Assembly: GCA_018902385.1 (NCBI GenBank)
Contig: JABSSW010000025.1
Coordinates: 434,001-498,000 of the forward strand
Length of the DNA stretch: 64,000 nucleotides
Direction of reading: 5' to 3'
Source of the DNA: Physcia stellaris
Taxonomy: Eukaryota > Ascomycota > Lecanoromycetes > Caliciales > Physciaceae
The notes under the pieces were generated by a model, which was given only the letters and a program-made list of their open reading frames with translations, ran no database searches and had not been told where the DNA came from. This document shows, one piece after another, positions 2,149-60,992 of the stretch. Each line of letters starts with the position of its first letter. Positions within the stretch are counted from its first letter, which is position 1. A program made the translations under genes and the position numbers.

Positions 2149-2229
2149 AATGCGTTGATTTAATAATAGTGAAATTGAGAAACAAGGAGGATTGGTGAAA
2201 AGTTCGAATGAGATTTTCAGATGTGAACC

Positions 2230-2299
2230 CTGACTAATCCTAACCAACCCTAACCCGTGACCCATTACTAGGTTTGACCCACTTCCGGGTGTAAACGAG
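2230..2299 (-). repeat. Terminal inverted repeat of the Fot1-like element
   Basis: Read on the minus strand from 2299 inward, it begins CTCGTTTACACCCGGAAGTG and continues with GGGTCA and GTAATGGGTCACGGGTTAGG. It is flanked outside by TA. About 44 of 46 bases in its core equal the arms of the MITE at 60412-60570. It contains isolated CCCTAAC units but is not telomeric. Confidence 0.75.
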
Positions 2300-4266
2300 T
2301 AGTATGTTTCATCCAGCTTGGAGTCTGACGTCGATCACGAAGTCCTTCGTGTGCGCCGCAATCTAGCTTCGACGTACATGCACAGTGCTGCACTTGTTTC
2401 ATCCCACTCCTCCTTCGGGACATCTCTTACGCCGACTGGCGTCATCCTGATTGAACATATGTCACATTGCGGCGTGCAAAGAGTCAAGGAGAACTGTGAT
2501 ACTACGGGGTCTGAGAATCAGCCCCACGAAGGGTCGAAGGAATGGCTGATGCCCCGTGCCTCTCAGGTTTAAGCGATCAGGCAAAACGAAAATGGAATGA
2601 ACAAGGGTTCCTCGTTCATCTACGGAGTGCACATCCATATTGTTGGCTATGCGCCTACAATAAACGAAACTTACCCCACCCTTTCTGGATATTAATTCAC
2701 TCCACTTGACAGCTATGCCGTACAGCCGTAGGAATAACATACGGGGTATTCTATTACGGCTACAAAGTGGCGCGCAAACAGACGTGCCGGTCGCTTTCTT
2801 CTGCCTGCGGTAATTCTTTTGCATCGCCCAGAGACCGTTAGTCTACTGTCCCTCAGCGTTTCCCTCAGAAGTTTCGGGTGGCGAGCATCGTGGATAAACG
2901 TTGGATTTACCATAACCTGGATAAACGTTGGATTTACCATATTGGCATCCAATCCCTCGAAAATGGCTCTGTTATTTTTCGAAGATAGGTATATAAGTAG
3001 GCTAGTGAAAAGGTGATATTGCACGAGCCCCTCTAATTCTTAGTATACAACAAGTTACTTGGCTTGATTGGTAGGAGCTGAACGACTTTCAATTCGATTC
3101 TCTACACATCTGTCAGCGAAGCTCAACATACATGAAACGCCATCAATCATTTTTGTGATCCAAAAGACACCTCCAGTAGCAAGTTCGACTGGTTGCATGT
3201 TATGGCAGTCGATAACCGCTAGGGGTGCTGGTTCAGCATTGAAAGTTCATAAGTAACCCAGATTCTGGCGGAGCTTGATTCGCTCAGAGACGGCTTCGCT
3301 GCCTCTACCGGTCCACGCTTGATCAAGATCACCTGAACGGAAATGATTCACACACTGGATCCTGTGGCTCTGGATATTACCAGTCTCGAGGAGCCTCAAG
3401 GAACTTTTGAGTATTTCCATTCATCACATTTGTTGTTATCGCTCCACCGACGATTTGTTATCGCTGCACCGACGGTTTTGAAGAACGAATATCGTCCACA
3501 GCTGGCGGAAAATGTTATTCCAGAGAAGCTAACCTTTTCCTTAGCACAGCTTCTGTATAGAGAGATAAGCGTGCGTTGCAGTATCGGTGATTCCGATACC
3601 TCGTTGGTATGTCTGCCATCTATTTGAGAACGCAAATACTATTGTTAGTCATGCTGGCGGTGCCGGCCACGTGAAGATTGCGGGCTTCTCCGGTTCTCGG
3701 GAAGCCAATTCTTCTTGATCGCCTGAAGAAACGTGGAGTGCCGTGGACTGCCAATTAGAGATTCTACGTTGCGGCAATTTTTCTTTGACCCGTACACCAT
3801 AAAAGGCATGGGCCAGTCCAGAATCCCTCGGGAACTTGCCGTGGTTGGCTCCAAGCCCTAGCTTCGCTTACCGTGCATGCATTAGTCGAATGCCTCTGTA
3901 TTCGTCAGAGCCTCGGCAGAGAAGTACTTCAGATACAATTGGTAGAGTTTCGGTTAGCAGACCTAGCTGCTGGACGAAAAAGAAATGACAAAGGTTCAGC
4001 TGTCCTTATGAGCCCCTCCAAAGGCTGACATCCAGGTGATGGCTTACCGTTGACTAACTTCTTAACGCATGATTTTCAAGTAGGCGACACGCTCTGGACG
4101 GCCTTGATGTATACGAATACCCAATGGGGCCAAGTGCTCGGCCGCCTACAATCATCCATCGCTACATTAAAGAGGGGCTCCTTCAAAGACGGCCACGCTG
4201 TTCCTCGCTTTACTTTCGTCCAACTGAGACTTTGTTGAATGAACAACGTTATAATATTTTTCGAGA
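2300..4266. other. Long region without a recognised gene
   Basis: Open frames here (for example 2462-2824 minus and 3343-3627 plus) match no family I recognise and lack a convincing start and splice pattern. At 3343-3710 a plus-strand frame could continue through a GTATGT...TTAG intron into HAGGAGHVKIAGFSG, which could be a small relic, but I cannot name it. A 25-bp tandem duplication lies at 2891-2940. The last few hundred bases should hold the promoter of the oxidase gene. Confidence 0.5.
2891..2940. repeat. 25-bp unit, two tandem copies
   Basis: TGGATAAACGTTGGATTTAC followed by CATA occurs twice head to tail, nearly identical. It lies in non-coding sequence. Confidence 0.8.
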
Positions 4267-31865: not shown

Positions 31866-32768
31866 GGTACAAAATGAGTCCTCGGATGGATCTGTATGTC
31901 ATGCATGTTGACGGTGTACGAGTAAGTGCTTGAGCTTCTCAGTTGGGGAACGAACGGAGCTTCAACAAAGATTCGCATGGGTCCTTTTAGGTGACTACGC
32001 CAAGAATGGACCCCTGTCAGCCCTACAGACGCAGAAGGCTAAAAGTATGCAAATACTTGTCTCAGTTAATCAGACCCCTGGCTAGCCTAAAAGCCAGCAT
32101 TTCTCGCCAGAGGGTCTGAGCCAAAAATCGGGTAAACCTTTGTTTTGAACGTTCCCGACTGCAATATTACACAAAAACAGCACGATAAACTGATAACTAG
32201 CGTTTTTATCAAGTATTATTGATTTAGTTCAATACAGTTTAAATTCATTATATCCGACTCGAGAACAATCAGAATTATTTCAGAATTGAGCAGCATAATC
32301 AGAATTATCTCAAAATTGAAATTTTCGAAATCACACAATTGAACGTTTTCAATGCGCAATGCAATTGCGTAATAAACATTACATATTATACAATTATTTC
32401 GTTAAAACATTGTAATTTCGTATCGAATTAACAATTTTATCGCTTTACATTGTTAAAATTCGAAATATTCGTTGTAATAATGAATTGTGCAATGTGTTTG
32501 ATTTGACAATTTTTGAATTTGAAAATGTAAAAAAATATGCGTTCACAAAACGATTGCATTGTTGCACAATTCAATTGCACAACAATTATGATGTATTATA
32601 CAATTATTTCGTTAGAGCGTTGTAGCTCGATATCGAATTAACAATTTTGTCGCTTTTACATTGTCAAAATTCGCAATATTCGTGTGAATAATGAGCTTCG
32701 CAAAATGTTTGATTTGAATGATGTCACGAAGTCAAATACGAATAAAAAATCGATTTTTGAATTCAGAT
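31866..32768. other. Mgm1 upstream region grading into AT-rich repeat flank
   Basis: 31866-32150 has normal composition and should hold the Mgm1 promoter. 32070-32119 is an imperfect hairpin (TCAGACCCCTGGC with GCCAGAGGGTCTGA). From about 32150 the sequence becomes AT-rich up to the hAT end. Here a stretch of about 90 bases (ATTATACAATTATTTCGTTA onward) occurs twice, near 32386 and 32592, about 206 bases apart. No gene is seen. Confidence 0.6.
32386..32730. repeat. Direct repeat, two copies about 206 bp apart
   Basis: Copy 1 starts near 32386 and copy 2 near 32592. Shared landmarks in order are ATTATACAATTATTTCGTTA, ATCGAATTAACAATTTT, TCGCTTT and ATATTCGT. Differences are mostly transitions. 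The host element is unknown; it lies just outside the hAT boundary. Confidence 0.7.
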
Positions 32769-33072
32769 TAGTGTTGCGAACTTCGTAAAATCTCTATTCG
32801 TTAACGCGTAGTTACGAAATAATTACCGAAAAGCAGATGATTGCTTTTCGTAAAATTCTATTTATAATATGAGAAAGTAGAATGTTGAATAAATAAATCA
32901 AAATATGATGTTTTGATTGAATGTAAAAATTGATAAAAAAAACAAATTTCTAATTTTGAGCGAAAAAAAATATTTTACTTTTGATGAATTTCACACGAAA
33001 ACAATATGTATTTTTTTTTTCAATTTTAGAAAACATTTTTATAATTTCAAACATATAATTTGCAAATATTCA

Positions 33073-33345
33073 AATTATGCATCGATACGAAAAATGCAAA
33101 AATCAAAGAATTGATTTTTAACAAAATCAAATTACGTCATATTTATATCGAGATTTTGTATGAAATTTCATACATCGATGCAAAAAATGCAAAAATCAAC
33201 GAATTGATTTTTAACAAAATCAAATTACGTCATATTTATCGAAATTTTGTATGAAATTTCATATTTCGATGCAAAAATTGCAAAAATCGACGAATTGATT
33301 TTTATCAAAATCAGATTACGTCATATATTTATCGAGATCGCATTT
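33073..33345. repeat. About 88-bp repeat, three copies
   Basis: The unit containing ATGCAAAAATCAACGAATTG, then ACAAAATCAAATTACGTCAT, then TTGTATGAAATTTCAT occurs three times head to tail, starting near 33085, 33176 and 33265. It lies beyond the 3' end of the hAT transposase, inside the element. Confidence 0.8.
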
Positions 33346-34328
33346 GATGTTTCAAATGAAATTTTTTTAATATTTCATATGATTTCATTGTTGTATTTAA
33401 TCATGAAACGAAATTGATCGTCGTAAATTGAATATCAAGCGTATTATCGTCGTCGTCGTTTTTTTCACGTGAATGTTTATTCAATGTGACGATTTCGTGA
33501 AATTTATTTATATTTTCGAATCGTAATTCATCGTCGTCATTCAAAATCAACATATTTTTCGACGAAATTTTATTTTTGTTGACATACAAAGTTTCGTCGT
33601 TCATGAAAATGAATTGAAACATATCGAATCGTTCAACGATCAAACGATTGCGATGTTTGTTGTGTATGAAATTCATGATCGAAAATGTTTTTTTCGAAAA
33701 TATCGAATTGACAAAAATATCGAATACACGTTTAATCAATCGAAAAAAATTTGTGATTTCAAATATAATCATGATCATGAATCAAAACAATTTCGTTTTT
33801 TTTTTCGATTCAAATATCGTTGTTGTTCGTTCAATCATGTTGTTGAAATTTCATGTAAAAAAATTGTTTGCGAATTTGTTTGAAAATTTTTGTTTCATCG
33901 ATGTATTTTTTCATGAATCGTAAAACGACGATTTGTTTTAATTGCGTCATTTGTATATGTTGATTGACGAAATTCAAATGAAACGTCGCATGATGAAAAT
34001 CGATAATTTGTTTGATATAACGATCATGTCAAATGCGTATTTTTTGATTTTTATCGTTGAGTCGAAATTCGAATATCGTTCGAATTTTATCGACATGTGA
34101 ATAATCAAATTTAATCATTAAATTTTTCAAATGATCGTATATTTTGTTTTAACGACGAATCACATAATCGAAATGTGTTCGATTAAATTTTGACATTTTT
34201 TGAATTTCGTGTATGAATTTCATTATTTCGTTCAAATTTTCGATATTTTTTCAAACGCGATAATTCAACAAAATGTTTTGTAATCGACGATTGATTTTCA
34301 AATTTTTTTCACGATGTGATTCATAAAC

Positions 34329-34513
34329 TGTTGAGAAGTACAGCCCCCGCAGTAGTAGGTGCGCAAGAGTCAGTTGGTATAACCTGACGAAAGGAGGACT
34401 AGTGCGTCCCTATTGGGCCTAGTGCCTTGGCACCGCACACATCAGAGCCTTCGGCCTGCCTGTACTTAGAAACTACAGGCAATCCATGCAGTCATTGCCC
34501 ATGCCTTTCAATA
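34329..34513 (+). repeat. 5' LTR of element A
   Basis: Starts TGTTGAGAAGTACAGCC. It is directly preceded by TAAAC and followed by the primer-binding site. Confidence 0.85.
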
Positions 34514-37210
34514 GGTTATGAGCCCGGGTTTAGCGTATGCTGCCCGTGGCAATGATGTTGCAACTGCCTGGCAAGCAGTCCGGCTTGGCAAGCCGTGGGG
34601 CGTGTCCTTAGGGGTATTAGGTGGCCCTTCGTAAGCGGACTCGTACCCACCTACCGCACGGGATTGACCACCGTCTCCACGAGGGAGTAAACGACATGTG
34701 AAGAGGATTCACCGTTCGACCGCGTTAAGGCTGTAGAGAGGATCTACATGGGCTCGACCACCAGCTCTGCGAGTGAGCAAACGGCTGTAGAGGTTCGACC
34801 ACCAACTCAACGAGTGAGTAAACGGCAGTAGGGAGGACCTACACGGCCCTGCGTTGGAGGCAGAAAGACTGGAGGATGCCAGTTCAACCTCACATCTATC
34901 GACAATCGGTCACCTAGTCATGTACCAAACGACTCCATACGTGACCACTCGTCAATCGCCAGTCAGCTTTGTACGAAACAGCTACCTCACTGGCACTCGC
35001 TAATTGCCACTCGGCCGAAGCACCTAGTCGGCCGCCACACGTGGCATTTCACTCCACCCTTCGACCCTCGCTATTCAACACCTTGTCCGGTTACATGTCA
35101 AAGAAAGAGCTAGGAACAAGGGCATACAACAAGAGGTAGAAGCGGTGGATTACATGTCAAGAAGCCGAAGCCTGCATCAGGAATTGCCGGCTCGCTCGCT
35201 CCACCTACCCCCAGAACTTCAATCAGGACCTCATCTGACCGTGGATGACCTACACCGCATGTTACTTGAGAAGCCGAGACCAATAGGCCTGCAGCAGCAC
35301 CAATTGCGCTCGTTCTCTCCGCGCAGTTCTGGCAAATGCAGTCCCGAAAGCATTTACCTCTCCTTTGGCCTCATACAAAATCGCATTACGTCATGCCTCA
35401 ATGCGACGACCAGATCTGCTCTCGAAACGGCCGAATTCGAGATCTTCAGACCTACACATGCTCGCGGAAATCTTCCGCGCCAATTCTCAGTCCCGGTCCA
35501 CTCTCGATCCACGTTTCTTGATTCTCGGAGGTCTCTTACTCGACTCCAATCTGCAGGCGCTGCCAAGGGCATCTCGCCACCTATTTGTTTAGCAGTTGGT
35601 CCACATCGACCGCTTCGAGAACCGGAAGCAGTGGGATATTCATGGGGATCTCTATCTTGGGGGAGTATTGGCCTGGAGGAGCCACAAAAGTTATTTGTTT
35701 TCGAACCCAGGAGTTCTGGATCGTGTTAATTTGCTTTGTTTAGTCCCCACCACCCACCCTGTCACTCATTTACCTTTGGGGGAGTCTAACTTGTTGTTTG
35801 TTGTTGTTTTATTGATCTGTAGGGACATGGTTGTTCTTCTTTGTGGTTGTTCGTCTTGATCTAGCACGAAACTCACCTACTCCCTACCACCCTGCGGCTT
35901 CGTTATCGAACGATAAATACGAGGGGGAGAGGGCGAGAAGAACGATCAGACGTGACAGTACTGCTTCGGGGAGCGTACTGTACAGTTACAGCAGTGAGCC
36001 TGCTTCAATGGTGTACCTCTAGTGAGCCTGCTACAACGGCGTACCTTTAGTGAGCCTGCTACAACGGTGTACCTCTAGTGAACCTGCTACAATGGTGTAC
36101 AGCTTCGTGGGAGTATACAGTCATTGGTACGAGTTGAAGTCAGATAGTACCGCTTCGGGGGAGCGTACTATGCAGTCACGAGTACGCCTAGGAGTCAGAT
36201 CAATACCGCTTCGGAGCGTATTGAGTCTGTTACAATAAGAGTCAGATCAATACCGCTTCGAGGGAGCGTATTGAGCCTGCTACAATAAGGGCTTGATGCC
36301 AGACAGTACCGCTCCGGGGGAGCGTACTATGCAGTCATTACACCTGGGCCTTGCAGAGCAGGAACTCGGTCAAGGACAAGAACTCGATCAAGAAGGACAA
36401 ATAGCGTTGGAGATATCTGACCTTTTCGCATACTAATCGACCTGTTTCTCTGACAGGGTTTAGTCAGGTCAGATGCACCACCTTCCTCATCGATTTCTCG
36501 ACCATCTCCCACCTTTCTCACTTCGTTGGCACATCCTGTGGATCTCCCATAGCCAAATTACATATGGATTTGGCCAATGAGATCGCAATGAGAGATGGGA
36601 GATCTGAGGCATTTGCGAGACGTCAATGATGCCATCAAGTGGATCCAAGTGTTAGCCGCCAATGCATTCGACTCTCGCCTCTGCGGCAAACTCAGGCAAA
36701 AGATACTTGTTCCACCGTGTACCTTCTGGCCAATTCTAGGTAGCAGCTGCCATATCGATGCATCACCTCATGGAGAAACGCAGAACGCCTTCAGTTACTC
36801 GGTCGCACGTCTTACAAATCGGCCTTACGTCATATCTGAAGCCAATAGGTCATCGGACCTCTATTCGTTCGTTTCTGCAGTCTTCGCATCGGTGTATGGC
36901 CTGGCCCTAGGACCTACTGCGTTGGGGGAGCTTGCTCGGAAGTCCTAGGCAATACATCGCGGGGGAGCTCCAGGAGTCACTTCGTTGGGGGAGTTAGCCT
37001 GCAGCAATGACAGTCACCCGTTTCAATAGGTCAAGATATACCGGGCTGGGGGAGCTTGCTCTGAAGCTCCAGGACACGCATCGCTGGGGAAGCTCCAGGA
37101 CTCACCCCTGAGGGGGCTAGGATCAGCATCGCTGGGGGAGCTTGCACGGAAGCTCCAGGCATCATGGTATCTGCTCTAGGCAGGAGGTACAGGCGGATGC
37201 TGTGGGGGAA
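34514..37210 (+). repeat. Interior of element A: several reiterated motif families
   Basis: Three repeat families are visible. (1) A GACCACC...CGAG-GAG-AAACG block occurs three times near 34669, 34755 and 34797. (2) A 28-bp unit starting AGTGAGCCTGCTACAACG occurs four times in perfect tandem at 35993-36104. (3) Purine blocks containing TTCGGGGGAGCGTACT (35960-36330) and then CTGGGGGAGCTTGC (36915-37150) occur about five times each, the last just before the 3' LTR, where a polypurine tract belongs. Confidence 0.75.
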
Positions 37211-37397
37211 TGTTGAAAAGACAGCCTCCGCAGTGGTGGATGCGCAAGGGTCCAGTTGGTATAACCTGACGAAAGAAGGACTAGTGCGTCCTTGTTGAGA
37301 CTACTCGCCTTGACATCGCACACATCAAAGCTTTCTGCCTGCCTGTACTTAGAAACTACACGCAATCCATGCAGTCATTGCCCATGCCTGTTTAACA
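37211..37397 (+). repeat. 3' LTR of element A
   Basis: Starts TGTTGAAAAGACAGCC after a polypurine tract (TGTGGGGGAA) and is followed by the TAAAC duplication. Confidence 0.85.
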
Positions 37398-37865
37398 TAA
37401 ACGAAAAAAGCGTTTTTATTTCGTATAAAAAAATTGAAAAAATCGATTTGCACGAATTAATTGTTGATAAAAAAACGACGAAAAATTACACATTTGAATA
37501 TTTCAACGCGTCAAAATCGATAACATAATAAAATAATGACGTTCGTAAATTTGTTTTTGACAATTTCGAAAATGAATGAATTGTTTGTTGTTGAAATTGA
37601 AATAAAACACGATTTCGAAAATTTTTTTGAACATTTTTTTGAATCAAAACAATTTCGATATATTTTTCATCAATAATTGAAAATCGTGATTATCGCAAAA
37701 AATTCAAAAAATGTGTTTGAATTTTTTTTGAACGTTGAATACGTGATAAATGTTTTTCATTTTGAATTCGATATCAATAACATAAAAATTGATTTTCGAA
37801 AAATTTTCGTTGATGTAAAATTTCATTTTATCATTCAATCATTTGATCAATACATCAGTTTCGTG

Positions 37866-38039
37866 TGTTACGAACGTGTTTCGAAAACATTGTCGCAAAG
37901 TTAGAAAAAACACGTGACTAAAATTTGATTTTCGCAAATTTTACACATATTTTTCGATTTTCATCTGTACATATCTTTTTTCTTTTTAGTTTTAGAATTT
38001 TCGTTTAATGAATATCGACTATCATGCACGACTGTAACA
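37866..38039 (+). repeat. 5' LTR of element B
   Basis: Begins TGTTACGAACGTG and ends GACTGTAACA, a perfect terminal inverted hexamer. It is preceded by TCGTG. Confidence 0.9.
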
Positions 38040-38051
38040 TTATTCTAAAAC

Positions 38052-38247
38052 TGTTGAAAAGTACGATGACAAAAGATTGAAATATGAACACGAATAGAAT
38101 CAGAATTTCTGATTGATCGATTAAACGAAACGTGTCAAAATCGATCATTATTAAAAACATTTGCGCAATCAAATTGTATTTATTTCTGTACGTAATTTCG
38201 ATAGTATTGCATGCAATGCAATGACAATCATTCATATTCGTTCAATA
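38052..38247 (+). repeat. 5' LTR of element C
   Basis: Starts TGTTGAAAAGTACGATG. The primer-binding site that follows (AATTATGAAATTCG) is an eroded form of the one in element A. Confidence 0.9.
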
Positions 38248-41200
38248 AATTATGAAATTCGAATTAACATAAATTTTTTGTGATTGTCAACGTCAATCGT
38301 TCGATCACGAAATCACGAAAATCAAACAACAATGAAAATGTTTCATCGATTCGATCGCGTCAAAATTGTAAAAATGTTTTACATATTCGAATTCGATCAT
38401 CAATTCAACGAATAAACGAACGATTGTGAAAATGTTTCACGCAATACAACAAATAAAAAAATTTACATATTTATATATTATATCACGCATCATGAACGAT
38501 TTCGAATTCAACAAATTTAACGCGCGTCAAATTTGCGATATTTTTATTCGTCAAAATTGCGAAAAATGATTCAAATTAATGAAACAATAATTTATCGACG
38601 AAAAAATTTGAATAATCGTCGATTCAAATTATGTGTCGAAATTGTTGTCGAATAATTTTCGAAAATCAAAATGAAATGTCGATTTGAATTTTGATAAAAA
38701 AAAAATTGAAAAAAAAAATTTCGACGTAAAAACACAATATCAATTTATCGAATATATCGATGACGATAATCAAAAATTGATGACGAAATTGAAAATTGTC
38801 AAAAAAATTTGAAAAATTTTTGTCAACAAATACAAACAAAAACTTGTTACAACTGAACGACAATTGTTGCAAAAATTCATGAATTACAAAAAATTTTCAA
38901 ACGTGATTATTGAAATCGTTTATATCGATATCATCAAAAAAAATCGCAAAATTGCAAACATGCAATCAAACATAATGAGTTTGTTCAAATCAAAACGTCG
39001 TTTTCAAACATTTTTAACATTTTTGTTTGTCGAATACGATGTTATTCGTGATGCAATCGACGCACAAAACAATTTCGATATCGATAAATTTATTCAAAAA
39101 TTGCAAAAAAAAAACACAATTAATTGCGAACAAAATCGTCGAATCGACGTTGATGATCAAAAACAATCGTCGTCAATCGTATCGCATATTTCAACGACGA
39201 TTTTTTAATTTTGATAAAAATTTTCGTCGTCGTTTCAAAATCATGACGAAAAAAATTAAAAATTGTTTTTTTTGTGACGATTCACACAAAATCGTCGAAT
39301 GCAATTTTTTGAAAACATTAAAAAAATGAACAAAAAAACAACAAATCAAAAAATTGTTCACAATCAAAAATAAAAATAAAAACAAAAAACATAAAACGTA
39401 TAACGTCGCAAATTTTTTTTCGTTTAATAACAATTTCAATTTCGACATCGACATCGATTCAAACAATAAAAACGATATAAAAAAAATCGTCGTTTTGTCA
39501 AAAAAATTGATCAATAAATTTTTCAAATTCGTATGAATTGCAAATATCGACGTTTCGTCACACATGATTGACGATTTTCGATTTTTTAATGAATTTTTCA
39601 AATCGATTAAAAAACGCACGATCAAAATCGAAAAAAAAAAATTGTATTCAAATTAATGTAATTCAATAACCATACGCGTCAAAAATAATAAAAACACGTT
39701 AACGAAAATGTTTTATATATTTGATTTCGACGTCAATTTTTTATTCGACAAACATTTTATCAAAAAAAATTTGATAAAAAATTTCAATGACGATAATTTG
39801 TTCATGCGTAATAAACAAAACGTTGAAATATTTCGAGCATTCGTTCAAAAAAATGTTTACATAATAAACAAAATCACATCAGAATTTAAAAAATACGCAT
39901 TGTTAACGAGCAACACGATATTTGCAATTGAATTTTTTAAAATTTTGTTTGTTTCATTTGCAATGTCAACAATCGTGAATTCGAACGAAATTTTGTTCGA
40001 TGCAAATATTGATTTTCGAAATAATATCGAAATCGATTTTCAATTATCGAATGTTGATTCAAATATTGATTCAAATGTTGATTCAAATATTGATTCAAAT
40101 GTTAATAAAAAAACGTGATTTATACGAATTATAATATCGACGTTTTGATCATATGAAATTTGCAAAATTTCGAAATTTGCACAAAATCACAATTTTACGC
40201 AAATCGATTTTCATCGTCGAAAATCGCAACGATTCATGTAAAATATGTGCGATTACGAAAATGATTAATGCATATAATCGTCGTTTAATCGAACGCAAAA
40301 TTCATATATTGAAATTGATGTTTATTAACATTTGCGAATTTTTATTTGTTTCAAAATTCGATTACGAATATTTTTAAAAATCGTGAATAATCATTTTCGA
40401 CGAACGTGAATTCTATTTTTCGCAAACGAATCGATGTTTTTGAAATTTTCAACAAATGGAAATTGAAAATGAAATTAGAAACTCAACGAAAATTACAAAC
40501 AATACGTTGTGACAACGTCAAAAAATTAAAATTTATATTCGATTTTTGATGCGAATTTATCGACATTGTTTCACAGTATATCGTTTCGTATAATTTCATT
40601 CAGAACGATGTAATAAAACGTGTCATAAAAACATTCGAAAATCAAATTCGAACAATGATTCAAAATGCAAAATTGTTTATAAAATTTTGACTTGAAACAA
40701 AAAAACAAATGTATATGTTCGCAATCGTATGAACACGAAATCAATAATCGACGACAATTCAACAAATTTTATTGAAATTTGAACAAATATTAAATCGTCG
40801 ATAAATCACATACGAATTTGAAAATGCAAATGTTATTCGTTTGTTGATATCAAATCATTGTTTGAAAAAAATAAAAAAAACAAATTCGTCAATACAGAAA
40901 AATCGAACGTGTTCATGAATTATGACGAAAACATCACGATTCAATACAAAATATAAATTTTCGATCGTCGTGATGTCATCAAACATCACAAAATAATGTT
41001 TTTTGAACATGAAAAATGAAAAAATGAATCGTTGAATTTGTTCACGATTACGATAAACGAATTATTTGAAAAACGATTTGTCGAAAAATCACGCAAAATA
41101 ATTATTGCATTTGCAATCGTTTCGATAACATCAACGTTTACATCAATTTTTGTTGCATCAATTTTTGTGAAAATTTCGATTTTTGTTGCGTTCATGATTT

Positions 41201-43731
41201 CGAAAAACAAAAAACAAAATTCAATCAATGCACACAAAAAAAAACGATGATAAATTCATCGATACATCGAATGAAAAAAATGAAATCAACGAATTTACGA
41301 CAAAATCGACAATTCAAACGCGCGTTAAATTAACATTTTTTATCAAATTTTCACGCATGATACAACAATTTTTTCACGTGACAATTTTCAAGCGCAAACG
41401 AAATATCACGAATGAAAAAAAACGAAATGAACATCGTAACAAAATTGCACGCGTTATGATGATTTTTTTGATCGAAAATTTCGATACGTGCGAACATGAT
41501 GAATGAATTTTGTTTGCAACAACAAAAAAAACAAATCGACAATTCGTTGAAAAATTAATCATATTTGTATTCGAAAATTATCAGAAAATCGTCAATGATT
41601 TTATTTGAAACAAATTTTGATTTGAAATCATTCAAATCGAATTGACAACGTTAATAATCAATGAAATTTGAAACGTCGTCATTTCATCGAAAAACGTCAA
41701 TATCGTTATCAATAAATGAATATTCAAAATCAAAATGCATGTGAATGATACATTGAACAAATTGAAAATCAGACTCGTTGCAAAAAATTTCTCGCAAATG
41801 TATGAAATCGATTATACAAATATTTTTGTTTCAATTGTCAAATTCGATATTTTTCGTCTGTTTTTTGTCATCGTTGCGTTGAAAAATTTCGAATGTCATC
41901 AAATGAACGTCAACAATGCTTTCACGAAATCATTTTTAAAAAAAATAATTTACATGAAATCGTCATTCGACGTGAATTTATTTTCAAAACAAACATTTCT
42001 GATTCGTCGAAATTTTTATGAATTGAAACAAGCAATTAAAAACTGACACGAGCGTTGCGTGAAAAAATTGCATAAATTGAATTTCGAACAGATTTCGATT
42101 GATTTTTGCATGTTTCGTCATAAAAAACGAAAAATCATATTGTTTTTTTACGTGAACGACATTTTTGTTGTCGTCAAATTCAACGAGCAAGTCAATTGAT
42201 TCAAAAATGAATTCAAAAAAATATTCAAAGTCAAAAATTTGAAAAAAATGAAAAAAATTTTTGACATTAGAATCACTCGCGATCGTAAAAGACGAATTAT
42301 TCGATTGAATCAAACTCATTATTTGAACGAAATATTGAATGAATTGCATATGAATATCGATAAACACGAACGCACGAAACTATTCATGAACGATTACGAT
42401 TCATTCAAATCAACTGAATCGAACGACGAGCGAATTGATTCAAAAAATTATCAACACAAAATTGAAAAACTCATGTATGTTGTTATACACATTCGTTCAA
42501 ATATCGTTTTCGCATTAAAACGATTAAATCAATATTTCAATGATTTTGCGAAACATCACGATAAAACAATGAAAATTTTGTTTCGTTATATTCGATCGAT
42601 CATCGATTTAAATTTTGTATACGATTTGAAATTGAACAACAATGAAAATTTCAAAATCAAAATTTATTCGAATTCTGATTACGCAATCGATAAATTAAAC
42701 AAAAAATCGATTTTCGAATACGTTTACATGTTCGCTGAAAAATCAATATCGTGAATGAATCGTAAACAAAAATCGATCGCTATTTCAATCATTGAAATCG
42801 AATATATGATTTTATCGACATGCGTTAAAAAAAAATTATGAATAACACAACTTTTTCGTGATTTGAATTTCATCAAATATTTTAAAATCGAATTGAATCA
42901 AATAATATTCATTCAAAACGATAAACATGAAATTTGTTCATCAATGCAATTTTGAAAAATAATTAAATCGTTAATTTGTTGATCAAAAACGCATATATTC
43001 ATAAACGATCAAAACACATTGATGTGATTTATCACAACATCAAAAATTTGCATCAAAAAAATTTGATTCAATTGAATTACGTTTCAAATGCAAACATGAT
43101 AATCGATAATTTGATTAAATTATTGTCAAAAAATAAATTCAAAAAATTCGTGAAACAATTGAAATTGAAAAAATCGAAAATCAATTAAATTTTTTCAATA
43201 ATCAGAATTGTTTTTTTCATGTTGACGTGTTGATGATTCAATCGTACACATTTGACGAATCATGATCGAAAACGAAAATTCGTTGATCGTGCTCGAACTC
43301 GAATTGCATGATAATTCAAAATGATTTTTTTTGAAATCGTTCGAATTTAATTTTCTGATCAAAAAAAATCAATGTTTTTCTCGTCAATATTAAGAAAGTT
43401 CGAGCTTAATGAAAATTACGTCATTTTTTTCATTTTGAAACGATGATGATTCGATTGTACGAATTTGACAAATTATAATTGAAAACAAAAATTCGTTGAT
43501 CGTGTTCAAATTCGAATTGCATAATGATTCAAAATGATTTTTTCGAAATCAATTTTTTGATCAGAAAAATTCAATGTTTTTTTCATCAATGAACGTAAAA
43601 ATTGAAATTCAATGAAAATTACGTCGTTGCACGAATTAACATTCAATGAAAATCACAATCAATGCAAAAATTGAAATTCAATGAAAATCGCATTCACGAA
43701 TGCAATGAACATGATTGTCATCGAATGAAAA

Positions 43732-43927
43732 TGTTGAAAAATACGATGACAAAAAATTGAAATATGAACACGAATAAAATCAAAATTTCTGATTGATCGA
43801 TTAAACGAAACGTGTCAAAATCGATTATTATTAAAAACATTTGCGCAATCAAATTGTACTTATTTCTGTACGTAATTTCGATAATATTGCATGCAATGCA
43901 ATGACAGTCATTCACATTCGTTCAATA
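43732..43927 (+). repeat. 3' LTR of element C
   Basis: The partner of the copy at 38052, with nine differences by eye, all transitions. It is followed by AAAAC. Confidence 0.9.
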
Positions 43928-46283
43928 AAAACTTCATTTTTATTCAATGAGAAACGTATACATGTATTTGTATGCGTTTTTCTAACAAATCATCAATGAT
44001 CGAAAAAAGACAACGAGACTGAATAACGCATCATAAACAGTGTTACTGAATCAGTCAATCAAGATTCAAATATTTAATTTATCAATTGCAAAATCAACTG
44101 TTTATCAATACGATCTTATTCAACAAATCGTACAATTTCATTGATCGTTTTTATTTATTTATCTGTTCGACATATCTTTTCGATAATTGCACGAATTAAC
44201 ATTTATTTACTCGACAACTCTTTCAACGATTGCACGAATATTTTACTCATTACAGCTCGAGAAAAATTCTGAAATATACGAATTTGCAAATCAAATTAAC
44301 GTATTCTTTTCAATTTCGTTCGAAACAACTTATCGATTCGTTCGTTCGTATCAACATTTATTTATCATTTGTTCGACAATTTTCTTCAGAAATTGCACGA
44401 GCGTCATTTTCATTACAATTTGAAATATTTGATCAAAACATACGCGTTTGCAAATCAAATCGATTCGTTTTTTCTGTTTTCGATCGAGAATGCACGTCAT
44501 GAATTTGTATCGAAAATTTTTATTCAAAACAATTTTCAATCCGCTCGTCATGAATTTTCTTACGAAATTTTCGTCGAAAACAATTCTCATCTCATCGTGA
44601 AAACGTCGAAATTCAGACACATACGAAAAGAAATTAGCGAATTTGAAAAATTCGCGTTGATTTTCTAGTTATCATAATAAAGAAACGATAATCGTTGCTG
44701 AATTTGACATCATTGATTTTTCAAATTTCGCAGAATGTACTCGTTGTGGGTATTGGTTTATGCAAAGCGATTGCGAAAAATCATTGACAAAGATTCATTT
44801 CATTGTTTGTTTTCGCAAGAATTTCATAAAGAAATCGCGAAACGAATTGAGTTGAAAAGATTGAAGAATTGAAAACTATGAAATTCATTTTTGTTGTTGT
44901 CGATATCGATTATTTCGATTCAATTTTGTTGTGCGATATTCAAAAATTCGATTTACATCACGAAACGATTATTTTTTGTCAACATTTGCAGAATATTCGA
45001 ATCAATTATCGCGAAATCGATTTGATTCAATTGTTTCATATTTGTTTACGTAATTTTGTTTTCGTATAATATCAAAAACAAAACGAAATCGTTAAACAAA
45101 ATTTAAACAAATGATTAAAAATCATTATTATTACATTTTTTGCGAATTTTTTTGCAAATTTTTTCTTTTCGAAATTCGATATTTTTGTTTTTTTCTTATC
45201 GCAATATTATTTTTGTTTTAATTGTTTCGCATTTTTTTCGTCGTTGACACGTTTGTTACAACATATTCAAATTGTTTGTCAGAAAGTCGTTTGCAAACAA
45301 TGCGACGAGATTTTCGAATCGAACAATAAATTGCACGAACATTTTCGTCAACATCATACAGCGAAAAAAATAATTAACGCTTCGAAACGAAATTTCAATA
45401 AAAAATAAATAAAAATTCAACAATTTTATCAACAATTTCAAAATCAATTTCATCAACAACAATAACAAAATTTTCGATATTTAAATTTGTCACATTTTCA
45501 AAACGATCGAAAAATTTATTTATTTCGTTCGTCATTTTTGCAACAATTGCATCAACAACGTCAAAACGTTCGCATTTTTCATTATTTACATTCAAATTTA
45601 CATCAAAGTTCGCGAAAATTGTATCAATTAATTTGTTTATTTCGTTCGCAACATTTTCATTAAAATTTCGAAAATCGATTTCGAAATTCTATTTTACAAT
45701 CGATAATTTGATTCGCATGTTTGTTGAAAAATTCAAATCATTTGATTTGCAATAGCATCAAAATTGTCGTCTTTTTTCGCAAAGTTTTGACGTTCGTCGA
45801 TTTGTTTATCAGTCACGAATTATCGTCTATTTTTTGTTTGCAGTCAATCAGAAAACATCGATTAATCAAAATCTGAAAAGCTCGAATTCGAAGAGTTTTC
45901 AGCAACATACGTTCGCGAAATCGATATCGTTTTGTCGTTTTGCTTTTGTTTTGTCAGAGAAATCGACTTTTTCATCATACAAAAAGTCAAATTTTTTTAC
46001 ATTTCGTTGCAATCAAGATTTTCATTTTTGCAATCAAAATTCTCGTCAAGATTTTCATTCGCATGATTTCGACTCATTTTTTCGTTTACGTTTTCGTCGT
46101 TTTTTCGATTTTCGTTTTCAGATTTTCATGTTTGTTGCATTTGCTTTGATCGTTTCAACTTTCGCAATGATTCGTTCGATTATTCATGATTCAATCATCG
46201 ATATTTTTCGAATCGTCGATCGTTGAAAAAGATATGAGAAAAATAATCGTTTCGAAACGAAATTTGCAAAAAAAAAAAAATAG

Positions 46284-46456
46284 TGTTACGAACGTGTCTC
46301 GAAGACATTGTCGCAAGATTAGAAAAAGCACGTGATTAGAATTTGATTTTCGCAAATTTTACACATATTTTTCGATTTTCATCTGTACATATCTTTTTCT
46401 TTTTAGTTTTAAAATTTTCGTTTAATGAATATCGACTATCATGCACGACTGTAACA
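46284..46456 (+). repeat. 3' LTR of element B
   Basis: Same ends as the 5' copy. It follows an A-rich tract (46267-46280) and is followed by TCGTG. Confidence 0.9.
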
Positions 46457-47510
46457 TCGTGTTTGACGTTTGATATATTTTCGTTGCAAAAATAATAAAA
46501 AATGTCGTTCAAATTGCAAAACAAATTGATGATGCGATTTTGATTAATGTTGTTCGAATCGTTTGTAACGAAATTAATACGATTGTTTTTGCGAAAAATA
46601 TTTAACATTTCATTTGACATTGTTTCATAAATTTTGTTCAGCAAAAATTCGTCAAATACATTTCGATCGAACATTTGATAAACGAAATTGAACAATTGAA
46701 TTTTTCGTACGAAATGACGATTTTGCAACAAATTTAATCGATTTTTTGTAAAATACAATTTCATGACAAAACAATCATCGATTTCGATTTGAAATTGAAA
46801 TGTAAATTTGAAATATTGCAAAATCGATTGACGAACATGAAATGTAAACGAAATATCGAATTCAACAAACGAAACAACATTATCAACATTTGAATTCGAA
46901 AATGTCGACGTGTTTGTTGATTGTTTTTTTGCTCGTCGTTTGACATTTTGAACGATTTGTTCATGTTCGTTAATCGAATTGTTCAAATAAATTTTGCAAT
47001 TTTCGAAATGATTTTTCATTTTCGTCGCATTGATCGTTTTCGTTCAATTCAAACAATGTCGACATTCAATTTTAAATAAAATCAAATTGAAATTTCGAGA
47101 AACAACATTGAACGTTCGTCAAAATTGTGCGTCAATCATCGTGTTGATGATGAAATATTGAAATAGAAAATAATATTGTAAAATGAAATTGCATCGAAAT
47201 CAAAATTTTCGAACATGTTGTCAACTGTAATTTTAATTAATTCTAATTTTACGCTTCGTAAAGCAAATGGGTTCTATTTACGTAATTACCGTAAAGTCTC
47301 GATTTTTCGCGTAATTCAGCACCACTAGTCCAGACGTGTAGAAGAGAAGCCCGAGCCCTACGACGCTTCGGCTACACGGCCCGAGACAAGCAAATACGTA
47401 TGTACATTATTGTACTTGTCCTCACTCTCAGTCTTGAAGCCCGTCTTCACCCCGGGAGCGAGGGGAGACAAGCGTTGACCGTTCAGTCGTGTCCAGTCTG
47501 TTGCGTCACG

Positions 47511-55597: not shown

Positions 55598-58500
55598 TTA
55601 GTACTCCAGGAAGTTCCCCCTCCTCAACTTGTTTCTGAACTTCTCCACCTCCCTCAGGCAAACACTCGCAGCGATCCACGCGAAGCTCACGAGCCTACCC
55701 ACTTTCTTGTGCTTTTTAATCTCTTGATGGCCAACCCAGAGGCACGCGATACTTCGCTCCAAAGCTTCACTGGTCTCGGCCATGTCCTCGCCTTGCAAGA
55801 TATACTTGATGGTGTACTCGACGTTACGTTCATGGCGCTCTTTCATCGTGGTAGAGAAGTCGCGCTGGCGTTTGGATTGCGCCCCGTTCTTGCCAATGAT
55901 ATTGCCGCTAAAGACCTCGACTTCTGACACAAAGTGATGAGGCTGCGAGGAGTAGTCGAACATTATGTGCACTAGGTTATCCTCGTAACTGTGCAGTACT
56001 GTCAGCTTCGTAGATACGGATTGGTTGGAGTATAATGCTCACTCTTCCTTCATATTTCTTGCAAAATCAAGATAGTGCTCGTACTGGATCAATGCCGCCT
56101 TCTCCTTGACATATCTCCATATCGCATCTAAATGATTTCCCCAAGGGTTTAAATGACTATCTAAACGCTGTGGTTGCTGTATCTCCTTAAATAGTTGATG
56201 TTCGTCGATGGCGCGATAGAGCTTGCCCAGTACTTTTTGACTTGGATAGTACTTTGTAATTGGCGGAGCGTACTCATCCAACTCCTCGATCTCCTCTGTA
56301 TTCGCAAACTCGTCTACTTCTTCGATGCGAATAATGTTGTCCATGAGCACTCGAGGACCAGGTGCTTGAAAGTCAGGTTTGACCTTAGGGGCTCTTGGAA
56401 TAGCATCCAGATCGACCTATGTAATTGAGTAGAGCGCCCTTGCTTGTGTCATTAGAGCAGAACTTACTGAATTACCTGTCTTGGAAAAGTCTACGGCGGT
56501 AGAGTGAAGCTCTGCAAGCTTGATACAGTCTGGATGGAAAACTCCCTCATCATGGATATCGGCCAGGGTTTGGTGCAAAGATGCGATGCGACCCAACGCG
56601 TCATTCTCCATGAATTGAATAAAGAAATCCGACATGTCGCTGGGAACAACTTGTCGTCCAATATCGACTGGTTGTACGATAGGATAGTCTGCTGGCTCGG
56701 ACAGCTTCTGTGGGTACAGAGTATCATCATAGATGATGTTATATAGATCCCCTACTCGTGGTCAACACAGTGCCTCTGGTCTCAACAGAGTATGAAGAAA
56801 TGCAGTCCGCCCAATGTAATATACGGTTCCTCCAATGATAACAACTGCGACAACTGTGTTGGAAACTATGACGGATAGTAACTAATGCTGCATTTCGATA
56901 GTGACGAAAATTGCTTACCGTCAAGGTCTCCACCGCTTAATTGTGAGGGTAGATCTATATGTAGTCAGTCAGTGGTCGGGCCAAGAGTCGCTCAATTGCC
57001 TCAGGAAGTCATTACCTCTTTCTCCATGTTGACTAAACACGATACAGTTGTGTAATGCTCTCAACGGTGAGTCTTGTGGAACATCTATTGCATCAACGCA
57101 CTGTACGTCGCCGGGATGCAAAGCCGGACACCTCGTTACGACAACGCTTCCAGTGAGAATCAAAGTCCCTTCCGGGTTTTCTACACAGCAGTAGACCTGA
57201 CCCTCTTGAAGAAGTCCTGTCTCATCCATTATACCTGCGTTGCTCAAGTCAGAGGGTCCTCAAAGGCTTTGAAAAGACGTACCATAAACAGTCATCCCTT
57301 GGTCGACTCGGATACGCGAGCGATGCTTCAGTTCACGTAGTTCCACTAAGACACAGACTTCCAGAATATGTCTCAGAAAGTCATCTTCCGAGTATATGAT
57401 ACCTATGTCCTGAAGTTCGCGAACTAACCACGGCAGTTTGACGGATTGACCGACGTTGTTCCGTCGAAGAAAGCTTGCTGCATTCACGGGAGACAAGGTT
57501 GCGATGCGTAGTTGCTCTACGGCATGGTTCTGTAGCGCAAGGAATGATTCGTCGGGAACACCAAGGTCCTCAAGTATTTTTATCAACTGGCGGTTTAGAT
57601 ACATCGTCAGAGGTTTGAAGGCTGCACCACAGATCTCTATGTCCAATGCTGTGGATCCTTCGAATTTGATCATCGAAGGACGTAAATACATTGCATGGTC
57701 ATTGAGCCGGTTATCTAGCGAAATCATGCCCTTTGCACCTGACGCCTGTCAATGGTGAATGGACCGTTATGAGAGAGAGATTGACATACCTTGGAATCTA
57801 ATCTGGAGTAACGCAGGCTTCAACAAGCGAGATTGGCCGTACGCTTGATGAATGACTGCTAAAACGGAAGGTGAGCATGTGCCTACGCCGTCGCTGAATA
57901 CGCGGCCATTCCTCTTGATATCAGGCATCTTCCTGATCGCATCACTTGGTAAGGTGACAGAACTAAAGGTCTGGGAGAATGCTTGGCCGATCCTGGCGGC
58001 ACACCTTGCTGGCCATTGAATTGTGCTAAAGTCTCCAAGCCTGGCAATTACACCTCTCGCATACAGAAGCTGATTATCAATCACAAATGGAGCCATAAAC
58101 CAGCAGGTTTGGGCTCGAAGAGAAGAATGAGAGAACCCGAGGAACTGTGCAATATGTACGTTAGTTGTGGTGTCTTCAATATGCCTCGTTTGAACGAGTA
58201 TATCATAAATTGGAATATAGCTGATACAAGCGCGAGCCTAGGAGAATTTCCGATGTGTTTAGTCATTGCGAGTATACAAATAAGATCACGATTGGAGTGC
58301 TGTGTTAGTATACTATCTGCCGTTCGAGGTAGATTGCAAAGAGAGGTTTGTGCGCTGAATTTATATCTTGTACTAGATTAATGGAGCAAGCTAGGAGGGA
58401 AGCAGGAGGAACATATCGTGCTTGTAGAGATACTTTAATAGATCTGAAACATACCTCAAACCCCCGGCCTGCGATATTGATGTTCCCGTGCAGAACTCCC

Positions 58501-59990
58501 TTGAACCTTACATGATAGATCTTTTCTTGCGATGTTACTCTTTCGTACCAGATCTGTTCAGAGTTCTCATCTGAAAATCTGACTTGTAGAAAATAATCCG
58601 TATGTGAGCGGTACTTCCGAAGTACACGGTTCTTCATTTCAGGCTCGGGGCCATAGAGATAAATCCCCGTTGGAGTGACAACTGCTTTGTAGATTTGAGC
58701 AATATGCTCAGGTTGCTCTGAAAGTCCTTTGGAGTAAGATTGTTCTTTCACAATAGAAGCAACATTTTCCACCAGCTGATCGGAAAGCGTCTGAAGACTC
58801 AATTCAGAAGCATCGGTTGCTGGACCGGCATAAGGGATTTGCTCGGACAGCCTTTGGATAGCCTTTGCCACGACAGGCCAGCTGCTTTGTGTGGAAAGCT
58901 GTGATACAGCCTCCATAAGATCAACTACCCTTGATGGAGGAAGATAGCCGTTCTGAGCTAGCCTTTGGAGTTGGAATTTGGTACCAAAGGAGAGCTGCGC
59001 ATATTTGCCACCTGTGAGAGCATTGTTCAGTTTCGTCATTTGAACTGGGAAGGAATGGGTAGGATCAAATTCAACGGTTGTGTTATAGGCTACGCTCTGC
59101 GGTATCTCCTGTACTCGGTTGAGAGCTCTTACAGCTCTCATATCGCGGTTATCCGAGAGGGTGACCCGGTAACAGAGGCAGCTAGCGACGACCCTCCCGT
59201 GCGCTCCGTTGAGTGCGGATGTGCGCTTTCTCTTTACAGGGTTGTATGGTATTCGTGAACCAGGACGTTGTAAAGATAGCGCCAGCAGATCTTGCGCTAG
59301 CATCCCATCTTCAGTGGACGGCGAGGTCTTCTCGTAAATCCTAGGAGCTTCTGCTAGAGAAAATGATATCGACGGATTGTTTCGCTCTATATCTCCAGTC
59401 GCCATGGACTCGACGCTATCATATCGGATTATTAATTGTTGCTCGGGGGCCTCGATACCTGCGAGGTTCAATTTCATTACGACCGCACCGCGACCGAACA
59501 GTATACGCCCTTGGACGGCGGTCCGGAAATGGGTTCTAAAGACGGGTTTTCTGCTCGAGTAGCCCCATTGGCCGCAAGAAACCGTGTTAATTAGAAAAGC
59601 CCTTTGCGCGTTGGTTGAGTAGTCTAGCGCAGGAGGGTGTAGCCCTTTGATATGTATTCTCGCTAACCGACGAAGCTCTTGATTAGCTAGACTTGCTATC
59701 ACAAATCTATCGGGTATGTTGTAGCTTTTGCTACAGTAGACCGGTCTACCTAGATGGTAGAGCTTGACCTTAATGCGGGAGACTTGGCCGCCTAGCTGCA
59801 GTTGCCCGTGGACATCAAGGAACCGGTCACCCACGGCGGTATCAATAAATGTGAGAAGCGCAAACGCTTTGTTCTGGTGCTTTTCGACTCGAAAGGTAAA
59901 GATTCCAAGTTTGTTCAGATGAGGTTCGAAGAACTTCTTAGTCTGCCGCTCAGTCATAGCATGTTGGAGGTTTCGTACCATGACCTCCAT
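55598..59990 (-). CDS. Cellular RNA-dependent RNA polymerase (RNA silencing)
   Basis: Eight exons in phase: 59990-58455, 58144-57790, 57738-57283, 57234-57016, 56954-56919, 56751-56468, 56416-56043, 55988-55598; about 1216 residues. An RRM-like start (VMVRNLQHAMTERQTKKFF) precedes the RdRP domain: FLGFSHSSLRAQTCWFMAPF, DIKRNGRVFSDGVGTCS, QGAKGMISLD, MIKFEGSTALDIEICGAA, GLLQEGQVYCCVENP, and the catalytic loop LPSQLSGGDLDGDLYNIIYD. That loop is split by an intron, with a 36-base exon carrying most of it. Members (QDE-1, SAD-1 and RRP-3 groups) copy aberrant RNA to double strands for Dicer, in quelling or meiotic silencing. I cannot tell which subgroup this is. The first intron (310 bp) is unusually long. 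Confidence 0.93.
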
Positions 59991-60992
59991 AATGCCAGTA
60001 GCCTGAAGGACAAGCTAGAAAGCGCAAGCTTAGTATGAAGAGGGGCTGTAACAGTCGCAGGAATAGGATAAATGAGAAATAGGGAAGGCCGCGAGGACAG
60101 ATGCAACAAAAGAGAAGGTCGTGTCGGTGGATTGAGGCTGCAACAGAAGTGAGTGATTGGTACCAGCAGTCAAGCTCAGGAGCAGCCGCTGCAGGACCCC
60201 ATTAATGCGGCTCGCGTCAATTGGGTGATCAGAATCGCACAGCACTCAGCCGTTGAAACGACTCTTGCATACAGGAGATCGTTCCTCGACTCGCAAGTTC
60301 GCAGGGAACGTTTTTTCGTGCCATGTATTCGGTACTACGAACTGAAATGAAAGATTATGGTGAGGATAAGGATATCAATAAAACCCTAGCGGACGCGTCT
60401 GCCAAGACTTACTCGTAGTCACCTGGAAGTGGGTCACACCCAGTAATGGGTCACGGGTTAGGGTTACCCGCAAAAATAAAAATCCGCCAGGGTTAGGTTT
60501 TGGCTTTTTAGCCGGTAACCCTAACCCGTGACCCATTACTGGGTGTGACCCACTCCCAGGTGACTACGATTATACTTGGCATTCTCGTCTAGGGTTAAAG
60601 CACCTCATTTGTTTGCTACTCCTTGCCATCTACAGCACGAAGAACCGATCTACGACGTACATAAGAGTGTCAATTCGATGGGACAGTAGTAGCACTGCAT
60701 GCAGCAGGTCTCGGAAAGGTTGATGTCGCCATGTCTTGGGGCTTAGTCAGAGCAAGGCTGAGATGATAAATGCCGACTACCCCATTTTCTATCTGTCGCG
60801 AAAACTGGTAGAGATCACTACTATCTGAAAAGCTGTCAATGTGTCTTTCTCAATGACATTAGCACGGTAGAAATTTGCAGGTTGACCAGGATTGAAGCAT
60901 ATCTTGAGAAGCGCTGAACATTGAGGACAAAAGACGCGTGCTGCTTACAGCACTTCCAGAATTTCAAAGTTCAGAAGCTGAGTTGCAATAGA
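59991..60992. other. Divergent promoter region between RdRP and Dug3, with a MITE
   Basis: About 1 kb between two genes transcribed away from each other. It holds the MITE at 60412-60570. No other gene is seen. Confidence 0.6.
60412..60570. mobile_element. Pogo/Fot1-type MITE
   Basis: 159 bp, of which the outer 57 bases on each side are inverted repeats differing at about two positions. The arms begin CTCGTAGTCACCTGGAAGTG and ATCGTAGTCACCTGGGAGTG (the latter read on the minus strand). TA flanks both sides (60410-60411 and 60571-60572), the target of pogo-like elements. Weaker symmetry (GCCAAG...CTTGGC) extends about ten bases further out. There is no coding capacity. The arms match the right end of the Fot1-like element at 2230-2299. 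Confidence 0.88.

Follow-up and report, generated by a model that had tools for sequence, protein, structure and literature searches.

Repeat-induced point mutation (RIP) changes C:G to T:A pairs, and its dinucleotide order has been measured in two fungi: according to the relevant passages of PMC5496416, Neurospora crassa follows CpA>CpT>CpG>CpC, and Trichoderma reesei mutates CpA and CpG about equally, then CpT, then CpC. The equal standing of CpA and CpG in T. reesei indicates that CpA preference is typical of RIP and not required for it. Amselem et al. (2015), in the sections of that paper available to us, describe a CpT signature in transposons of Magnaporthe, Botrytis and Sclerotinia, predominant in Magnaporthe (PMC4352252). 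Here we examine 64,000 nucleotides of the ascomycete Physcia stellaris (the window; positions 434,001 to 498,000 of contig JABSSW010000025.1, called C25 here, of a 44-Mb assembly in 147 contigs, GCA_018902385.1). The window contains an AT-rich block of decayed long terminal repeat (LTR) elements that has lost nearly all cytosines standing before a pyrimidine (CpY, that is CpC and CpT). Judging from its sequence, this block is probably transposon DNA mutated by RIP or a RIP-like process that targets a C with a 3' pyrimidine. CpC, last in both measured RIP orders as these passages give them, comes first in P. stellaris repeats.

An earlier note on this DNA had claimed that between 32150 and 47337 cytosines before T or C are nearly absent and those before A or G survive. 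Dinucleotide tables bear this out more strongly than it was put. Per kb and strand, 37398-47337 holds 65 CpA, 1 CpC, 59 CpG and 10 CpT (with 53 TpA, 71 TpC, 65 TpG and 178 TpT), compared with 68 CpA, 57 CpC, 55 CpG and 63 CpT in the flank at 1-32000 (48 TpA, 71 TpC, 68 TpG and 70 TpT). TpT and TpC have taken the place of CpC and CpT, and CpA, CpG, TpA and TpG stay near their usual levels. Observed-to-expected ratios over both strands are 0.03 for CpC, 0.19 for CpT, 1.33 for CpA and 3.27 for CpG in this block, and 0.02, 0.16, 1.30 and 3.56 in 32769-34328, against 0.97, 1.01, 1.09 and 0.92 in the flank. Some 200-bp bins have no CpY on either strand, for example three within 39001-39600. The note's hand counts (20 CpA, 15 CpG, 1 CpT and 0 CpC on the plus strand of 38881-39000 and 45601-45720 together) were exact. 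Its range held for about 32250-34328, with a gradual left edge at about 32150-32350, and for 37398-47200; it failed for the element at 34329-37389, which is unmutated (GC 0.525) and lies between these two AT-rich stretches. Most of the window has a GC content of 0.41-0.58 in 1-kb bins.

Ordinary RIP would have left CpA depletion and TpA excess. We looked for this outcome in 32769-34328 and 37398-47337 and it was absent: CpC and CpT are the lowest dinucleotides, CpA is kept, TpA/ApT is 0.44 and 0.39, respectively, compared to 0.69 in 1-32000, and (CpA+TpG)/(ApC+GpT) is 1.48 and 1.45, compared to 1.24. The LTR pairs of the two decayed elements had been said to differ mostly by C/T before T, and they do. 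The pair 38048-38249/43728-43929 has 10 differing sites (seven C/T before T, two before A and one transversion), and the pair 37865-38040/46283-46457 has eight (seven before T and one before C/T) plus one gap. The primer-binding site agrees by eye, with CCCGGG after the left LTR of the unmutated element and TTCGAA after the LTR at 38048-38249.

To read the direction of change we used the unmutated element, which has at least 154 genomic matches, itself counted, as the reference for 19 other loci, with overlapping alignments removed. Five of the 19 (L008, L009, L010, L011 and L013) are clearly CpY-mutated. In the aligned parts of the other 14, CpC>T stands at 7-18% and CpA>T at 6-14%; local alignment favours unmutated parts, and these low rates do not establish that the copies are unmutated throughout. 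Relatives at 71-77% identity (L014, L017 and L023) and at 76-82% (L007 and L012) are likewise little mutated where they align. In L008, changes affect 322/374 CpC (0.86), 220/407 CpT (0.54), 29/402 CpA (0.07) and 18/317 CpG (0.06). The corresponding counts are 217/357 (0.61), 102/387 (0.26), 34/391 (0.09) and 19/293 (0.06) in L009, and 124/177 (0.70), 52/214 (0.24), 14/207 (0.07) and 3/146 (0.02) in L011. Transition contexts in repeat alignments, which the note had proposed tabulating, thus show far more change at CpC and CpT than at CpA and CpG. They also separate two targets that it had treated as one class: both are lost, and CpC is struck harder, by a rate ratio (-log of the unmutated share) of about 2.5, 3.1 and 4.3 in L008, L009 and L011, respectively.

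The 5' base and the +2 base have little influence on the rate. The mutated share at CpC is 0.82 for ACC, 0.80 for CCC, 0.73 for GCC and 0.79 for TCC, and at CpT 0.46 for ACT, 0.45 for CCT, 0.33 for GCT and 0.40 for TCT. Both strands are mutated; in the L008 alignment from 467 to 3061 the load is 234/316 on the plus strand and 215/326 on the minus strand. These features bear on two explanations other than RIP. An APOBEC-like cytidine deaminase acting on single-stranded DNA, or hypermutation during reverse transcription, would account for clustered changes that are C-to-T only, but the context lies in the 3' base with a weak 5' effect, both strands are struck, and so is a displaced copy of ribosomal DNA (rDNA) described below. 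We know of no APOBEC enzymes in fungi, though no search aimed at them was made, and we consider this explanation very unlikely. Ultraviolet or other dipyrimidine damage is suggested by the fact that CpC and CpT are both dipyrimidines, yet TpC shows no increase when a purine follows (TCA 31/283 and TCG 18/309 vs ACA 20/265 and ACG 20/219) and the affected DNA is largely repeats, which makes such damage highly improbable. The weak 5' base and the unraised TpC before purine thus disfavour both.

The copia-type element at 38048-43929 has at least 29 further matches at 86-96% identity, some of them partial. We compared the window's copy with five others. At 599 of the 600 sites that precede an invariant C, all six copies have T, and at the last a single copy has C. 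The copies disagree at 398 of the sites that precede an invariant T. Before A, 124 sites are T in one copy only vs 19 that are C in one only. Private hits before G amount to 1-2 of about 525 sites in four copies, and CpA stands above CpG in five of the six. The other two copies, L040 and L042, hold raised private CpG>TpG, at 13/535 and 16/539. Only 40 transversion sites occur in 5413 columns. CpA is therefore a weak secondary target, as these private changes indicate.

A displaced 45S rDNA unit offers a reference outside the transposons. It lies on the minus strand of C41:42001-50000 (L026), comprises small subunit (SSU), 5.8S and large subunit (LSU) parts, and is nearly without CpC. No 5.8S match besides the one in this unit is reported; since this sole match is the mutated copy, the assembly may lack a functional rDNA array. 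Taking strongly conserved Rfam letters as the reference, we counted 5.8S, six of eight LSU blocks and four of eight SSU blocks; one SSU block with unequal line lengths and three blocks whose consensus is all lower case are left out of the count. C>T changes occur at 34/37 CpC, 21/46 CpT, 1/38 CpA and 0/34 CpG sites, so that 56 of 155 conserved C:G sites carry C>T and none carries any other change, and 5/282 A/U letters are changed. Two additional SSU blocks, counted with their elided parts left out, gave 2/2, 2/5, 0/2 and 0/4, with 1/34 A/U letters changed. CpY and CpR (C before a purine) differ at p = 2e-19 (Fisher), CpC and CpT at p = 7e-6, and CpC is struck at 4.1 times the CpT rate on the same -log measure. 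CpG is retained in this copy as in the block, which rules out methylation decay of the CpG type.

For a view beyond the window we sampled eight 10-kb stretches of the genome, picked by coordinate before reading, as 160 bins of 500 bp, and called a bin affected if its GC was below 0.38 or its CpY share below 0.3. Affected bins number 37 of 160 and are spread over five of the eight stretches. Their mean CpA per kb is 64.9 vs 68.8 in the other 123, and their TpA/ApT is 0.26-0.68. In a search of these stretches for a CpA-type layer, both classical RIP indices pass their thresholds in 0/37 affected and 3/123 unaffected bins. When sample and window are sorted into GC classes from 0.55 to 0.25, CpC falls through 73, 58, 49, 25, 9, 1 and 0 per kb and CpT through 66, 68, 65, 54, 41, 19 and 6, while CpA stays at 64-69; CpC is lost first, then CpT. 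An account without any mutator, by base composition or by selection acting on AT-rich DNA, would be favoured by the low GC taken alone. We give it almost no credence, as constant CpA beside vanishing CpC, together with the direction read from the rRNA sites, refutes plain AT bias. Most gene-rich DNA and one single-copy control lack the signature.

Taken together, the element copies, the rDNA copy and the sampled stretches all show CpC and CpT to be much more heavily affected than CpA and CpG, which supports the note's suggestion of a different mutator specificity or process. C:G changes to T:A on both strands; in the most decayed copies nearly every CpC and most CpT are hit, CpA and CpG are close to untouched, and both dispersed repeats and the displaced rDNA unit are struck.

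A search of the genome with PF00145 found three methyltransferase genes (on C3, C5 and C6) with complete catalytic domains, none of whose loci shows CpY depletion. The C3 gene is the DIM-2 orthologue: it matches PDB 9bap at E = 2e-181, an entry identified as N. crassa DIM2 through the passages seen of the DIM2 structure paper, PMC11315935. The C6 and C5 genes (L001 and L003) share 40% identity across 174 catalytic-part residues, and a Pfam search of the two proteins gave no BAH match. QIGNAVPP stands near the end of both. From domain content, RID motifs and the class features given in the available sections of PMC4352252, the two genes appear to be class I and RID-like. The inspection of methyltransferases that the note had proposed thus yields two RID-like genes and one DIM-2 gene.

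In the DIM-2 alignment (numbered as the N. crassa DIM2 chain position minus 2, with a single DIM-2 reference sequence), N1170 is changed to A and R1175 to I, K1143 and T1144 also differ, and R1145, T1164, T1166, T1167 and D1173 are kept. The structure paper, in the passages available, has N1170 touching the +1 position and R1175 intercalating (PMC11315935). We treat these two changes as a lead only; they may be ordinary variation. They do lend some weight to a process driven by DIM-2, in which heterochromatic repeats are methylated at CpY and their cytosines lost during vegetative growth, with no RID or premeiotic step. Parts of PMC13297926 and PMC8016269 report that N. crassa DIM-2 favours CpT and that dim2 of Zymoseptoria tritici drives mitotic CA-to-TA change. 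Against this, CpC is lost before CpT, unlike the CpT preference reported for DIM-2, and L011 combines heavy CpC loss (0.70-0.73) with few other substitutions (transversions 0.018 per site), which a burst fits better than slow decay. We regard the DIM-2 route as unlikely.

A methyltransferase-type enzyme is consistent with selection by the 3' base, with the slight influence of the 5' base, with action on both strands and with the mutation load as compared with other substitutions. We favour a changed specificity over a wholly different process because the change is C:G to T:A, on both strands and mostly in repeats, and because RID-type and DIM-2-type genes are present. In such a RIP-like process an enzyme of the DNMT1 class, with either RID-type protein as the likeliest candidate, would recognise duplicated DNA in the sexual phase and promote the C-to-T change. 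Where the 3' base recognised in known species is A, and sometimes G, this enzyme would have come to recognise a pyrimidine, and cytosines before C would be struck at about 2.5 to 4.3 times the rate of those before T. What is deaminated could be 5-methylcytosine or an enzyme intermediate, either being compatible, as in RIP generally. The responsible enzyme could be either RID-like protein or DIM-2, between which sequence alone does not distinguish. The rDNA copy and all five mutated relatives show CpC loss ahead of CpT loss, a lead that would fit one enzyme with a graded preference or two enzymes.

Several observations weigh against this interpretation. The share of mutated sites differs between strands in some of seven alignments (p = 0.031, 0.0011, 0.051, 0.25, 0.011, 1.0 and 0.0003), and a window-by-window test for strand switches gave 6/500 shuffles for L013 and 54 to 470/500 for the other six, with no clear sign of the strand patches that mark RIP and that recent RIP should leave. 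CpA survival, as claimed by the note, is large but incomplete, with 7-32 private CpA>TpA changes at 544-568 sites (1-6%) in each of the six copia copies. Strong CpT targeting and differences among species have already been published, as parts of PMC2621366, PMC4352252, PMC7882544 and PMC3828140 attest. Dependence on repeats holds for part of the affected DNA only. The affected sample L035 has just two short partial relatives, and a genome search with the patched transposase gene at 301-2700 found no second full copy. This gene (HTH_Tnp_Tc5, DDE_1), which we take to be of pogo/Tigger type, is depleted of CpY at about 451-750, 1051-1350 and 1951-2250, in patches that alternate with normal ones, and its frame at 601-1293 remains open across one of them. 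These exceptions may have lost their partners, or the partners may have decayed past recognition. Repeats nonetheless account for much of the affected DNA tested. A 1.2-kb part of the affected sample L036 has 38 further matches of 531-1215 bases, 32769-34328 has genomic relatives (the six longest at 67-79% identity), and the unaffected 2.5-kb control is single copy, its genome search having returned no second match.

How does the pattern compare with the described systems, as far as the passages available from each source go? It shares with RIP in N. crassa and T. reesei the C:G to T:A change (with no other change at the conserved rRNA C:G sites and 40 transversion sites across the copia copies), the action on both strands, the targeting of transposons and displaced rDNA units, and RID and DIM-2 homologues, here two apparent class I genes and one DIM-2 gene. 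It differs in its order, CpC>CpT>>CpA>CpG, and in TpA/ApT, which falls here and rises there; neither CpA preference nor TpA gain is seen (TpA/ApT 0.39; 1/38 CpA at rRNA sites; 0/37 bins). Magnaporthe, Botrytis and Sclerotinia share CpT targeting and a RID-class gene, of which apparently two are listed for Botrytis B05.10 and Sclerotinia; there CpT goes with CpA, in text that gives no CpC, whereas in P. stellaris CpC is the leading site and CpA almost escapes, without the CpA loss that accompanies CpT in the description by Amselem et al. (64-69 per kb over GC 0.25 to 0.55) (PMC4352252). In the RIP-capable fungi of van Wyk et al. 2021 (PMC7882544) and in N. crassa Tad1 (PMC2621366), CpT>TpT is the most frequent change, but those counts come from copies in species with CpA-type RIP, where CpA may be exhausted; here it is still present. 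Monacrosporium haptotylum resembles P. stellaris in that repeat CpA is not decreased, and its authors suggest another dinucleotide preference; TpA is high there (TpA/ApT 1.12) and not raised here (0.39) (PMC3828140). Copia and gypsy families of Colletotrichum truncatum (PMC6180176) and Anisogramma (PMC10998396) also show CpT>TpT. In the CpT families of C. truncatum, TpA/ApT is about 1.6 and (CpA+TpG)/(ApC+GpT) about 0.1, unlike 0.39 and 1.45 here, and in Anisogramma CpA and CpT are affected together.

Outside RIP proper, the dim2-dependent mitotic mutation of Z. tritici is a methyltransferase-linked C-to-T change in repeats, but in a CA context, which we do not see, and not CpY (PMC8016269). 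Microbotryum and the rusts likewise show context-specific C-to-T change in transposons; the target there is CpG and the enzyme of Masc2 type, whereas CpG is retained here (PMC4352252). The process in Ascobolus known as MIP is methylation without mutation, unlike the sequence changes seen here. In Monilinia, CpC>TpT double changes stand beside classical CpA>TpA, according to part of PMC8959702. In the openly available passages of the literature, a scope outside which Clutterbuck's 2011 survey of RIP in filamentous ascomycetes falls, we found no mutation in which CpC leads, CpA is spared and TpA does not rise; that survey may hold a prior description.

Table 1. Elements and open frames in and around the CpY-depleted DNA of the window.
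Feature	Coordinates	Strand	Basis or remarks
CpY-depleted AT-rich stretch 1	32250..34328		GC about 0.25; dinucleotide tables, bins
Unmutated LTR element	34329..37389	+	GC 0.525; LTR-like ends 34329-34506, 37211-37389
Main CpY-depleted block	37398..47200		Dinucleotide tables, bins (rates counted over 37398-47337)
Second decayed element, copia element nested inside	37865..46457		LTRs 37865-38040, 46283-46457
Decayed Ty1-copia-type LTR element	38048..43929	+	LTRs 38048-38249, 43728-43929; RVT_2 match
Copia-type reverse transcriptase open fragment	41720..42046	+	PF07727 (RVT_2), E 1.6e-14; inside CpY-depleted block
235-codon open stretch in mutated DNA	46336..47043	-	Longer than any in 200 Markov-1 simulations

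The layout of these features is given in Table 1. The copia-type element begins just past the left LTR of the element that encloses it. The 235-codon open stretch exceeds the longest run (212 codons) across the simulations of the block, and a Pfam search with it gave no match. In the first AT-rich stretch, a 91-base unit occurs as three near-tandem copies in mutated DNA at 33048-33338, two of them 90% alike and the third 68%. The unmutated element carries many short near-palindromic modules at 36100-37180, for example around GTACCGCTTCGGGGGAGCGTAC and GGGGGAGCTTGCTCGGAAGCTCC (by eye, with two pairs computed). Directly after its left LTR, at 34507-34530, stands GGTTATGAGCCCGGG, whose complement presumably resembles the anticodon region of the initiator tRNA, as in the half-tRNA priming of copia-type elements. 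A small dispersed element at 2245-2302 and 60410-60562, with matches of about 46-61 bases, resembles a short hairpin repeat; it occurs mostly as opposite-orientation pairs about 50 bases apart at many loci, for example on C15, C67, C47, C13, C37 and C2. A partial gene at 58305-60014 (PF25358, PF05183) encodes an RNA-dependent RNA polymerase that includes a fungal PH-like domain, and it may hint at RNA silencing as well.

A preference for CpY would change what such mutation does to genes. A single hit can create a stop codon at CpA via CAA, CAG or TGG, at CpG via CGA, at CpC via TGG to TGA only, and at CpT by no route; among 1884 codons in four open gene stretches, stop-convertible codons make up 5.8%, 1.5%, 1.5% and 0, respectively. 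As CAA/CAG and CGA are barely struck, TGG to TGA is left as the sole single-step route. Per kb and strand, TGA is up in the block relative to the flank (32.5 vs 18.9) and TAG is down (1.6 vs 10.7). Defence would then act mainly by missense change. It is an evenly balanced question for us whether P. stellaris represents a fungal lineage with a RID-type enzyme whose +1 recognition has switched from purine to pyrimidine, with CpC as the best site and a mainly missense defence.

RID catalysis in vitro is tabulated as not detected in the section of PMC13297926 concerned, and how RID chooses its targets, and whether RID proteins act enzymatically, are open questions for which a different dinucleotide order would provide a natural specificity variant. 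The usual RIP tests would overlook CpY-type mutation even in saturated DNA. Survey thresholds for RIP, as quoted in part of PMC3828140, are TpA/ApT >= 0.89 and (CpA+TpG)/(ApC+GpT) <= 1.03; saturated DNA here scores 0.39 and 1.45, so that such genomes would be counted RIP-free. Indices suited to CpC and CpT loss, (CpC+GpG)/(TpC+GpA) and (CpT+ApG)/(TpT+ApA), already have a definition in PMC2621366. If our interpretation is true, genomes listed as RIP-free may harbour CpY-type mutation that is invisible to the standard RIP indices.

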